DNA of 39,986 bases from contig CP070734.1 of assembly GCA_020347605.1 (NCBI GenBank), forward strand, positions 3,109,326 to 3,149,311, read 5' to 3'. This DNA is from Deltaproteobacteria bacterium. Lineage in GTDB: Bacteria > Myxococcota_A > UBA9160 > G020347605. The first letter of the stretch is position 1, and each line of letters begins with the position of its first letter. The position numbers and the translations under genes are program-made. Shown here one piece after another: positions 16,783-23,715 of this stretch. The notes under the pieces are model-generated. The model was not told where the DNA came from. It saw only the letters and a list, made by a program, of their open reading frames with translations, and ran no database searches.

Positions 16783-18213
16783 TCAGCCCGCCGCGGCGCA
16801 GCGGCCGGCGCGGCGCCCGAAGAACGTGCCGTCTCCGAGCGACAGCCCGCTGCTGTAGCCGCCGACGGAGAGGCCCGAGGTCGTGCGGCCGGCGCCGAAC
16901 AGACCGGGAATGGCCTGGCCGTCCGGGTCGAGCACGCGGCCGTCCGCGTCGGTGTGCAGCCCGCCGAGGGTGAACGCCGCGTAGATGGAGCTCTCGACCG
17001 TGCAGTCGAAGGCGCCGAAGGGCGGCCGCACGAGCGGTCTCAGGTACTCCGGAGCCTTGTGGAAGACGGGGTCCTCGCCGTTCTCGGCGTGCCGGTTGTA
17101 GAGCCCGAGGGTGCTCTCGAGGCTGCCGGGCGGCAGCTCCAGCTCGCGCTCGATCGCGCCGGGGTCTTCTCCGACCGCGGCGAGCTCGCGCGGATACTCC
17201 GGCTTCTCGAACACCGCGTCGTCGACCACGAGCCAGGCGCGGCCGCCGTGCCGGAACAGCGCCCACTCGCCCAGGCGGCCGTAATAGGCGTCCTCGTTGA
17301 TGAAGCGCTGTCCCTGCGCGTTCACCAGGATGCCGCGCTTCAGACCCCAGGGCTGTGTGACCGGCAGCGAGATCGACGCGGCATCCATGTGGAGCGCCGC
17401 GCCGCCCGCCGCCATGCCGAGCAGGATGCCGCTGCCGTCGTCCCCCTCGGCGCCGATCCGGATCGTGCACTGCCGCACGAGCGGCGCGTGCGCCTCCAGC
17501 ATGGCCTCGTTGTGGATGAACCCGCCGGTCGCGAGGATCACGCCGCGGCGGACGCGCAGCGCCCGCGTCGCGCCGAAGCTCTCGGCCAGCGCACCGACGA
17601 TACGCCCGTCCGCCTCCTGCACCAGCGCGACACAGCGGTGGTTCACCGCGATCCGGGCGGCACTCGACTCGACGGCGGCGACGAGCTTCTGCATCAGGAG
17701 CGGGCCGGTCTGGTGCTCCATGCGCGGCACGTGACCGCGCGGCGCGGGCACCGCACTCTCGCAGAACGGATACGCGCGCTCGGAGCCGGACCACACGAGC
17801 CCGTCGTCGGTGGGCGGCTCGCCGCTGGTACCCTCGTAGAAGGTCGGCTTGAACGGAACGCCCTGGGCCACCAGCCACTCATAGTGCTCGACCGAGCCGT
17901 CGCAATAGAGCCGAATCTTTTCTTCGTCTGGACTTGGGCCGCAGGACTTCATCAAGTACTTGAACATCTCCTCGGGCGCGTCGTCGAAGCCGCAGGCCGT
18001 CTGGAGCGCGGTGCCGCCGCCCAGGTAGATCACCCCGCCCGACATCGCCGAGGTGCCGCCGCCGCCGCTCGCCCGCTCCAGCACGAGCGTGTCCGCCCCG
18101 GTGCCGGCGGCCGTCAGGGCTGCGGCCGCGCCCGCCGCGCCCAGGCCCACCACCAGGACGTCGACCTCTTCGTCCCAGCGCGACACGGATCGCGGGTCGC
18201 ACACGCGACGCAT
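16783..18213 (-). CDS. FAD-dependent oxidoreductase (fumarate reductase/3-ketosteroid dehydrogenase-like)
   Basis: 476 residues from the ATG at 18213; a longer frame upstream overlaps the selenoprotein and is a shadow. The Rossmann dinucleotide motif VDVLVVGLGAAGAAAA begins at about residue 18. It is followed by LERASGGGGTSAMSGGVIYLGGGT, characteristic of the FAD_binding_2 family (KstD and flavocytochrome c fumarate reductase). GVILATGGF and a C-terminal FAD-binding block (GLFGAGRTTSGLSVGGYSSGLSLGDG) complete it. It begins 50 bp after the selenoprotein stop on the same strand and is the third gene of that apparent operon. It may pass electrons to or from the thiol/selenol proteins, or act on an unsaturated lipid or steroid-like substrate. 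Neither is shown by the sequence. Confidence 0.88.
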   Translation of the reverse strand: MRRVCDPRSVSRWDEEVDVLVVGLGAAGAAAALTAAGTGADTLVLERASGGGGTSAMSGGVIYLGGGTALQTACGFDDAPEEMFKYLMKSCGPSPDEEKIRLYCDGSVEHYEWLVAQGVPFKPTFYEGTSGEPPTDDGLVWSGSERAYPFCESAVPAPRGHVPRMEHQTGPLLMQKLVAAVESSAARIAVNHRCVALVQEADGRIVGALAESFGATRALRVRRGVILATGGFIHNEAMLEAHAPLVRQCTIRIGAEGDDGSGILLGMAAGGAALHMDAASISLPVTQPWGLKRGILVNAQGQRFINEDAYYGRLGEWALFRHGGRAWLVVDDAVFEKPEYPRELAAVGEDPGAIERELELPPGSLESTLGLYNRHAENGEDPVFHKAPEYLRPLVRPPFGAFDCTVESSIYAAFTLGGLHTDADGRVLDPDGQAIPGLFGAGRTTSGLSVGGYSSGLSLGDGTFFGRRAGRCAAAG

Positions 18214-18262
18214 CAGGCGGTGTCGTCCGTCGCGCTGCGGTGCGCGATGGGAAACGCGGCGT

Positions 18263-18802
18263 TCACGTCGCGACGAGCTTCGAGACGATCGCTTCGAAGG
18301 CGCGGTCGGCGATCTCGACCATCTCGGCGTCGCTGCGGTCCTGTATGGGGTGCTGCACGTAGACCGCCGCCGGGTCGGCGCCGAGCGCGCGCGCCTGACG
18401 CTCGGCGCCATCCGTGAACTCGACCGTCGCCACGAACACGCCCGGCACGCCGCGCGACTCGAGGTCGATGATGTCGTGCACACTGCACGACGTACAGCTC
18501 CCTCAATCGGCGAGCGCCTCGATCACGGCCCCGCACTCGACGGCGATCTGCTGGCGCACGTCCAGCGGTGCCGGCTTGGTGAACGTCGGCTTGCGGTAGC
18601 GGCGCACCTCCGCGCCGGCGCCCGAGAGCCGCGCCTCGAGACGGTCGAGGAACACGTCGCCCCGCGGCTTGGAGATGTCGAGCAGGCCCACGGTCACGGC
18701 CGAGAGCGAGGCGAGACGCGGCAGCCGCGCGCGCAGCGCAGGCGCGCGTTCGCTGGTGGGATCGAGGACGATTCGCGCGTCGCCGGCACCCCGACCGCTC
18801 AC
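18263..18802 (-). CDS. UGSC-family selenoprotein with in-frame TGA (Sec100)
   Basis: 179 residues if the TGA at 18505-18503 is read as selenocysteine. The GTG at 18802 overlaps the upstream stop by 4 nt (GTGA), with CAGGAGG 7 nt before it. Residues 1-99 contain TVGLLDISKPRGDVFLDRL and a FTKPAPLD segment. Codon 100 is TGA, giving ALAD-U-GSCTSCSVHDIIDL. The frame then continues without a break as LESRGVPGVFVATVEFT and VQHPIQDRSDAEM to a TGA stop. The post-TGA sequence is a conserved UGSC-family C-terminus, so the TGA is not the real end. U100 and C103 form a UxxC redox pair, with C106 nearby. Its neighbours are a thioredoxin-fold protein and a flavoprotein, which fits a thiol/selenol redox role. 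The exact reaction is unknown. Sec machinery is not in this window. Confidence 0.9.
18473..18491 (-). promoter_or_regulatory. Bacterial SECIS-like hairpin after the Sec TGA
   Basis: On the minus strand GTCGTGCA pairs perfectly with TGCACGAC around a GTG loop. The stem begins 12 nt after the TGA and the loop is 20-22 nt after it. Bacterial SECIS elements place a small G-containing apical loop about 16-37 nt downstream of the UGA, so both distance and loop fit recognition by SelB. It lies inside the coding region, as expected for bacteria. Confidence 0.75.
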
Positions 18803-20247
18803 GGCGTGACCTCCTGCGTGACGGGCTGGCTTCCGATGGCGCCGCCCGCCCAACCCGCGATGATGGCAGAGAAGAGCCCCGCCCTTCCACCGCAATGGAC
18901 GATCAGGATCCCGTCGGGGCGGAACTTCGGAAGCGTCTTGCCCTCGATGCCGCTCGGGCCGCCCTCGGCGATGCCGCCCGCGCCGCGCACCAGCTCGTCG
19001 CCCGGGATCTGGAGCAGCTCGTGCAGCCGCTCGGTGAGTCGCTTGCGGTCCCAGCCCGCGTCGCGGAACACGCGCGCGTGCTCGGGACCGATCGCGAGCA
19101 GGACGTCGAAGGCGAGCACCAGCTTCGGGTGGTGCACCGTGCGCAGGTTCACCGCGAAGCTGCGCGCGAGGCTGTCCGGATCGCGGGACAGCTGGTCGAC
19201 GACGCAGCGGGGCCCCTCACCCGGAAACAGCGTCACGGCATCCCGCCCCGCCGGGATGCCGCGGCTCACGGACAGCGGCTCGAAGGGCGAGCCCTCCTCG
19301 TCCTCGGCGAAGCAGAACGCGAGCTTCCCGGGGTTGCCGTGCGTCGCCCGGTCGACCTCGCCGGGCCGGCCGCCCCCCACGTTGCGCACGATCAGCTGCA
19401 GCGCGCGCCCGATCGCGAGGTTCGCGCGATTGCCCTGCCCGAACACGTTCATGCCCGAGCTCATGCCGATCCGCCGGCGGATCGGACCGTTCACGATCAG
19501 CACCGGTCCGACCGGCATCGTCGTCGCCAGCAGCCCGTGCATGTTGAAACGGTCGGTGCACGCGGCCGCCAGCGCCGCCAGCACGACCGGCAGGTACTCC
19601 GGCTTGCAGCCGGCCATCACCGCATTGATGGCGGCCTTCTCCACCGTGCAGGGCGCGAGATCCGGAGGCACCACGGCCACGACCTCGTCGGGTGCGCGCA
19701 GCGTCCCCTCCAGCATCGAGAGCACGCGCTCCTCCGTGGGCGGAACGACCGGCAGGCCGTCGGTCCAACCCCGCTCGAAGAACGCCTCGAACGCATCTTC
19801 GCGGTCCGCCAGCGCCACGCGGCGCGCCGCGAGCCGGGCTCCGCCGAAGCGGGCGCGCAGCGCGGGTACCCGGTCCGGATCCACCGACAGCGAGCCGCAG
19901 CCCGGCCGGAAGTCGGGAAGCTCCGGCCCGAGCCCCGTCACGCCCGTCAGCGCCTCCCACTCGGCGCGATGCCAGCCGAGACGGCGCTCCTTCTCGACGC
20001 CGTTCTCGACGCGCAGGAGCGTCGGCACCGCCTCCACCGCGTGGTGCCAGGAGACGGCGAGCTCGCGGTCGTCGCGGGCCGCAACGCCCTCCGGGAAGCT
20101 CGGGTCGTCCTGGCTGTAGACGGCGAGCGGGACCGCGCCGGCGAGCTGACGCAGCACCGGCGCGACCAGTGCGCAGGTCGGGCAGTCCCGCTTCACGAAG
20201 GCCACGATTCCGTCGGGCAGCGGCGGCGGCGCGTGTCCAGGGGCCAC
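18799..20247 (-). CDS. Thioredoxin-like domain fused to a UGSC-associated domain
   Basis: 482 residues from the GTG at 20247. Residues ~10-100 are a thioredoxin/glutaredoxin-like fold: GIVAFVKRDCPTCALVAPVL carries a CPTC active site (C22, C25) and AVPTLLRV supplies the cis-Pro loop. Residues ~150-482 form a second, larger domain beginning FERGWTDGLPVVPPTEERV. It continues with PCTVEKAAINAVMAGCKPEYLPVV, MPVGPVLIVNGP and ends VHCGGRAGLFSAIIAGW. Conserved Cys occur in this domain too. I know this domain only as one that travels with UGSC selenoproteins; its reaction is unknown. No signal peptide is present. The stop overlaps the selenoprotein start (GTGA), so the two are translationally coupled. 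A 66-bp divergent promoter region separates it from the DUF3604 gene at 20314. Confidence 0.85.
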   Translation of the reverse strand: MAPGHAPPPLPDGIVAFVKRDCPTCALVAPVLRQLAGAVPLAVYSQDDPSFPEGVAARDDRELAVSWHHAVEAVPTLLRVENGVEKERRLGWHRAEWEALTGVTGLGPELPDFRPGCGSLSVDPDRVPALRARFGGARLAARRVALADREDAFEAFFERGWTDGLPVVPPTEERVLSMLEGTLRAPDEVVAVVPPDLAPCTVEKAAINAVMAGCKPEYLPVVLAALAAACTDRFNMHGLLATTMPVGPVLIVNGPIRRRIGMSSGMNVFGQGNRANLAIGRALQLIVRNVGGGRPGEVDRATHGNPGKLAFCFAEDEEGSPFEPLSVSRGIPAGRDAVTLFPGEGPRCVVDQLSRDPDSLARSFAVNLRTVHHPKLVLAFDVLLAIGPEHARVFRDAGWDRKRLTERLHELLQIPGDELVRGAGGIAEGGPSGIEGKTLPKFRPDGILIVHCGGRAGLFSAIIAGWAGGAIGSQPVTQEVTP

Positions 20248-22551: not shown

Positions 22552-22623
22552 GCGGCCGCGCGACCGGCCGTGGCGGGCGGCGGCGCTGGACCTGGCGCGC
22601 GGGATGCCCGAGCATGGGAGCCG

Positions 22624-23715
22624 ATGGTGCGGGTCCGCGACATCGAGTGGGAAGCCTGCCTGATCGAGCCGCGGCGCGACCCGGAGCTCGAGCGGCAGCT
22701 CCGCAAGCAGGTCGGCCGCCTCCCCGGATCGATGGCCTACTTCTCCCCCTGCCCCTGGCTTCCCAGGGTCCTCGCCGCGCTGAATGGACTCGAGTTTCCG
22801 CTGGTTCACATCGACCACCATCTCGCGGACCTCGTCATGCTCGTCGTCAGCCAGGACAACTCGTGCCGCTACTGCTACGCGGCGCAGCGCGCGCTGCTTC
22901 GGGTCGTCGGGTATCCGCAGTCGCAGATCGCGCGACTCGAACAGGACTTCCTGACGGCCGAGCTGGATCCGCGCCAGCGGGCGGCTCTGGATTTCGCGCG
23001 CCGCGTGTCGCGCTCGAACCCGCTGCCATCCGCGGCCGACAAGCAGAGGCTGCGCGACGCCGGCTTCAGCGAGCTGGCCATGAAGGAGGTCGCCGGAGTG
23101 GTGGCGCGCGGCATCTTCCTCAATCGGGTCTCGACGCTGCCGGCCCTGCCGCCGGAGCGCATGGAGGATCTGCCCGACCGCTGGTACGTCCGGCTCGTGG
23201 GTCCCCTGCTGTCGCGCAAGTACCGCGGCCTTCGCCGGCGCGGCGAGCCCACGAAGCTCCGCGAAGACGAGAAGACCGGCCCGTACGCCTACCTGGTGCT
23301 GGCCCTCGACGGGCTGCCGTTCGCCGGTGAGCTGCGACGCGTGCTCGACGAGATGTGGCATTCCCCGATCCTGAGCGCCCGGGCCAAGGCGCTGATCTTC
23401 GCCGTCGTCGCCCGGGCGCTCGGCTGCCCGTGCTCGGAGCAGGAGTCGACGCGTCTGCTGCTCGAGGAGGGTCTCACGCAACGCGACGTCGACGAGATCC
23501 TCGCGCACCTGGCCTCCCCGAAGCTGGATCGCGTCGAGGCCGTCGTCGTGCCCTTCGCGCGCGAGACGATCTGGTACGAAGCCGCGCAGATCCAACGCCG
23601 CGCCCGAGCGCTTCAGCCGCAACTCTCGGCGGCCGAGTTCATCGAACTGATCGCGGTCTGCGGCCTCGCAAACGCGGTCTGCCGGCTCGGAATCATCACC
23701 GACGCGGCGGGATGA
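22624..23715 (+). CDS. Two-domain carboxymuconolactone decarboxylase/AhpD-like protein
   Basis: 363 residues from the ATG at 22624, preceded by GGGAG. The first half carries DNSCRYCYAAQRALLR with C81 and C84, the CxxC of AhpD-like peroxidases, after an IDHHLADLV segment. The second half, from about residue 220, repeats the helical fold (LSARAKALIFAVVARALGCPC) but has a CxC (C268, C270) instead of CxxC, so only the N-terminal unit looks catalytic. Such double-CMD proteins may reduce peroxides or act as thiol reductants. Its stop overlaps the cyclase start by 4 nt (ATGA), so the two are translationally coupled. Confidence 0.88.
   Translation: MVRVRDIEWEACLIEPRRDPELERQLRKQVGRLPGSMAYFSPCPWLPRVLAALNGLEFPLVHIDHHLADLVMLVVSQDNSCRYCYAAQRALLRVVGYPQSQIARLEQDFLTAELDPRQRAALDFARRVSRSNPLPSAADKQRLRDAGFSELAMKEVAGVVARGIFLNRVSTLPALPPERMEDLPDRWYVRLVGPLLSRKYRGLRRRGEPTKLREDEKTGPYAYLVLALDGLPFAGELRRVLDEMWHSPILSARAKALIFAVVARALGCPCSEQESTRLLLEEGLTQRDVDEILAHLASPKLDRVEAVVVPFARETIWYEAAQIQRRARALQPQLSAAEFIELIAVCGLANAVCRLGIITDAAG

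Follow-up and report, generated by a model that had tools for sequence, protein, structure and literature searches.

UGSC proteins are among the commonest selenoprotein families of aquatic metagenomes, and the UGSC proteins in the GOS data contain selenocysteine (Sec, U) far more often than cysteine (255 versus 21; PMC2398784). UGSC selenoproteins that use TAG as the Sec codon are also known (PMC5330540). A thioredoxin-like fold has been stated as likely for the family (PMC2398784; PMC13188914), and the published descriptions that we found give it no function. In the published UGSC literature we found no statement of a link to protein B of glycine reductase (GrdB), an enzyme to which thioredoxin supplies electrons (PMC13188914), and none of a pairing with the gene described below. 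Here we analyse a UGSC locus in a 39,986-nucleotide stretch of deltaproteobacterial DNA (the window).

The UGSC gene and its in-frame TGA

The gene starts at a GTG codon (18802-18800) that overlaps the stop codon of the upstream partner gene (GTGA, 18802-18799), and it codes down to position 18266. We read the final TGA (18265-18263) as the real stop because homologues end near there. A single TGA lies inside the frame (18505-18503), followed by GGG AGC TGT, which gives U-G-S-C. The Pfam UGSC model (PF24696) matched the read-through product across this codon, from residue 13 to residue 178 in the numbering of the searched translation (E = 2.4e-40; 138.9 bits against a cut-off of 25), as did the NCBIfam UGSC_fam model (NF041046; 149.1 bits against a cut-off of 125). 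The U/C-G-S-C motif is present as U100-G-S-C, and all four of its columns are invariant in the homologue alignment. We consider that the read-through frame is not due to chance, because one Pfam domain covers both halves, the base composition of the three codon positions is that of a gene both before and after the internal TGA, and this codon is kept at the Sec position in all 80 of the nearest loci from other, named genomes.

Table 1. Positions of the UGSC gene, its partner and associated elements within the window
Feature	Position	Strand	Basis
UGSC-family gene, very probably a selenoprotein gene, 179 aa	18263..18802	minus	PF24696, NF041046, translation, 80 homologous loci
In-frame TGA, predicted selenocysteine U100	18503..18505	minus	TGA column in 80/80 loci and 71/73 matches in the order
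Bacterial SECIS-like hairpin, GUCGUGCA-GUG-UGCACGAC	18473..18491	minus	Folding, compensatory third-position changes, fixed AGT
AGGAGGT, Shine-Dalgarno-like, 6 nt before GTG	18809..18815	minus	Direct sequence reading
Partner gene, 482 aa; N-terminal thioredoxin (KRDCPTC) and C-terminal domain without Pfam match	18799..20247	minus	Conserved beside UGSC; sequence and fold

A sequence-only reading of this DNA had described two halves in one frame around TGA-Gly-Ser-Cys, with U at residue 100 of 179 and a conserved C terminus beyond it. The translation and the single Pfam domain across both halves agree with that description, and the coordinates that it gave were correct; the strand, which it left unstated, is minus. 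Its expectation that a standard gene caller would split the gene or lose the second half is borne out for a plain list of open reading frames, which breaks the gene into ORFs of 72 and 130 aa, but NCBI already has a model for the family. The plus strand of 18263-18802 gives no sensible protein, and the other candidates for a read-through TGA in the window resemble ordinary gene ends.

We found the UGSC family in 44 of 61 genomes (this genome and relatives of its order), and 71 of their 73 strong matches contained exactly one TGA. The nearest named loci encode proteins 74-75% identical to that of the window. The same TGA pattern holds across the phylum, where a few UGSC copies lack the stop; one of these, L022, has cysteine at the Sec column (ADCGSC). 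Homologues carry U (TGA) at this position and rarely Cys. Five genomes (G356, G307, G032, G233 and G348) each have six to nine UGSC matches, some of them weak, and contain a second type of UGSC protein that has UGSCTSW in place of UGSCTSC and whose partner has no thioredoxin domain.

Selenocysteine insertion

The 51 nt from the TGA onward fold at -20.7 kcal/mol (z = -2.07) and include a hairpin with an 8-bp stem and a 3-nt loop, GUG, which starts with G-U and lies 19 nt after the UGA. Published criteria for bacterial SECIS elements ask for a loop of 3-9 nt, an upper stem of 4-16 bp, a spacing of 16-37 nt, a minimum free energy of -7.5 or lower and a G in the first two loop positions (PMC13188914), and the hairpin satisfies them all. 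A scan of the window and of the selenoprotein gene with Rfam gave nothing relevant. Among 91 distinct sequences, two stem pairs that involve third codon positions stay paired in 91 and 90 sequences, where about 82 would be expected if the positions were independent; a further third-position pair is nearly invariant and so uninformative. In all four Trp-type paralogues, in which a cysteine codon (TGC) has become a tryptophan codon (TGG), the third position of the Val/Leu codon has changed from G to C (GTG to GTC or CTC). Additionally, the serine codon in the loop is AGT in all 91 sequences, a codon used for 6% of the serines that the partner genes encode. Compared with synonymous recodings, the site had a mean folding z of -1.16, and control stretches had values of -0.14 to -0.43. 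The mRNA at the hairpin is constrained beyond protein coding.

The sequence-only reading had proposed a check for selA, selB, selC and selD. The genome contains selA (455 bits), a tRNA-Sec gene (selC; 71 bits, anticodon TCA) and selD, which itself has an in-frame TGA at the catalytic position (LVPAGG-TGA-ARKLGAEDL), and selB was not recovered in this assembly, a 68% complete metagenome-assembled genome. The absence of selB is most likely an assembly gap, because the assembly is only 68% complete, it also gave no EF-Tu match of the strength expected of that protein, and 46 genomes in the set of 61 (this genome and relatives) have a selB that scores above the cut-off. The selD gene (L008, G000:C1:1597704-1598201) has a run of N downstream of its TGA, where a scaffold gap cuts the gene.

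The missing selB is the one point that we found in favour of taking the internal TGA for a genuine stop codon or an error of sequencing, in which case the locus would be a pseudogene or two short genes. That reading would have to accommodate a TGA at the same column in every one of the nearest loci and in nearly all matches within the order, a domain that is conserved beyond the TGA and an RNA hairpin under a constraint of its own. Conservation already refutes it, and we give it practically no weight. The proposal of a UGSC selenoprotein is supported: the genome has selA, selC and selD of the Sec machinery, and homologues neither end at the TGA nor have an unrelated residue there. We conclude that the gene very probably encodes an ordinary bacterial selenoprotein, functional and belonging to the UGSC family. 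Conservation shows that its UGA is decoded as Sec through the downstream SECIS hairpin, and we infer that the gene is expressed.

A conserved thioredoxin-bearing partner

The UGSC gene and the gene that precedes it form a conserved pair. We found an orthologue of the partner near UGSC in 77 of the 80 loci (54-81% identity), and in the 61 genomes 67 of 73 UGSC copies had a partner homologue on the same strand within 600 nt. Of these 67, 38 matched over the full length and the others only over the C-terminal part; some of the latter came from contig ends, and others were paralogues without the thioredoxin part. The partner protein (482 aa) had no significant Pfam match, and its N terminus is a thioredoxin domain by both sequence and fold, in which K, C, T and C of KRDCPTC are invariant. 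Cys214 and Cys312 are also invariant, even in paralogues that consist of the core alone. The structure model of the partner is less confident in the C-terminal domain (pLDDT 82, pTM 0.67). In a Foldseek search this model found class I fumarase at E = 7.7e-4 and a probability of 0.82, with TM-scores of about 0.2 and an rmsd of more than 11. The fumarase link of the C-terminal part is weak and may serve as a lead only.

Among the loci compared, only the partner is generally conserved around UGSC; we found no conserved gene for a substrate pathway, and recognized no glycine reductase genes beside UGSC. Neighbours that resemble acyl-CoA dehydrogenase, MaoC, A/G-glycosylase and LLM-type proteins (functions named by eye) form lineage-specific clusters. 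Directly downstream of the selenoprotein gene, the window encodes an FAD-binding oxidoreductase (16783-18216, minus strand; NCBIfam NF005510, 604 bits); this protein, an acetoacetate-decarboxylase-like protein and the efflux genes of the window had no match in the other UGSC loci. Elsewhere in the window (22570-23715, plus strand) lies a gene for a protein in which two stretches, with the motifs CRYC and CPCS, resemble carboxymuconolactone decarboxylase/AhpD; this protein shows weak kinship to several (seleno)protein families and here has Cys only.

Kinship with protein B and a possible function

Profile comparisons show that UGSC is remotely related to the Sec domain of glycine/sarcosine/proline reductase protein B, a kinship that, judged from sequence, is limited to about 80 residues. 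The NCBIfam GrdF model matched 28 of 35 UGSC proteins and the GrdB model 27 of 35 (best E = 4.2e-6). Within the same phylum, we found the C-terminal half of a real GrdB with its own in-frame TGA, situated at a contig end (L138; G183:C42), which is the only TIGR01917 match at E <= 1e-20 in the 237 genomes searched from this phylum. Alignment of UGSC with this C terminus by hhalign gave a probability of 95% and E = 2.9e-8, with U on U (TSTUGTCTRCG...LERAGIP...IPHPLGD in GrdB and ALADUGSCTSCS...LESRGVP...VQHPIQD in UGSC), and, reciprocally, the Pfam UGSC model matched the same GrdB at 6.7e-5. Because scores against the full-length models fell far below the membership cut-offs (19.8 bits against 800 for GrdF; 16.5 against 602 for GrdB), we regard UGSC as related to GrdB and not as a GrdB.

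The AlphaFold model of UGSC (pLDDT 91) has five strands in strict beta-alpha alternation, and U lies where the helix that follows strand three begins. Searched against the PDB with Foldseek, this model matched lumazine synthase and flavodoxin-like folds, with no thioredoxin among the best 50; a search of the PDB by sequence gave no credible relative. UGSC models as a flavodoxin-like fold and not as the published thioredoxin-like one, which the prediction calls into question.

The near-constant thioredoxin-bearing partner and the remote link to GrdB provide a concrete, testable hypothesis for the function of UGSC. The GrdB-type domain carries its Sec residue in a UxxCxxC site that is conserved. 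UGSC is a stand-alone alpha/beta domain and would work with the product of the preceding gene. U100 and Cys103 of the U-G-S-C motif would form a Se-S bond during reduction of a substrate, which might be a small molecule in which a C-N, C-S or C-halogen bond can be reduced. The thioredoxin domain of the partner would probably re-reduce the Se-S bond after each turnover, by analogy with thioredoxin in glycine reductase. We put the chance that the pair is a two-gene, thioredoxin-fed reductase at about even. The broader proposal is tentative and falls slightly short of even: the two genes may encode an unrecognised seleno-reductase system that is driven by thioredoxin, has a common origin with the Sec domain of glycine/proline reductase protein B, ranges across Deltaproteobacteria/Myxococcota, Acidimicrobiia and Chloroflexi, and has multiplied to several copies in some genomes.

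Two other functions deserve consideration. The UxxC motif and the fold stated in the literature would suit a general thiol or peroxide redox protein of thioredoxin-like fold that is not a GrdB-like reductase component. We think this unlikely, since the model has five alternating strands with helices and flavodoxin-like matches, the sequence and profile matches to GrdB, GrdF and PrdB place U in register, and the thioredoxin domain belongs to the partner instead. Alternatively, the C-terminal domain of the partner might be the catalyst of a dehydratase-like enzyme, with UGSC as its activator or redox regulator, as the Foldseek link to fumarase and the invariance of Cys214 and Cys312 down to the core-only paralogues would suggest. 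The low TM-scores, the large rmsd and the reduced model confidence in that region argue against such an enzyme, which we judge improbable.

Among known systems, UGSC shares with selenoprotein B of glycine/sarcosine/betaine reductase (GrdB, GrdF, GrdH) and with PrdB of D-proline reductase the U-G-[ST]-C-T-x-C motif in register and, after it, the motifs LE..G[IV]P and HP. Unlike GrdB, UGSC has about 180 aa and consists of the Sec domain only. The window gene has the same full-length domain and U-G-S-C motif as the described UGSC family (PF24696 / NF041046; PMC2398784), with no decisive difference, and adds one sequence to this already known family. In the GOS data, UGSC was likewise tied to a conserved unannotated domain, as a UGSC/Unknown_1 fusion (PMC2398784), whereas the window has two genes and a partner with a thioredoxin domain; the Unknown_1 domain of that 2008 fusion may be the same as the domain of the partner.
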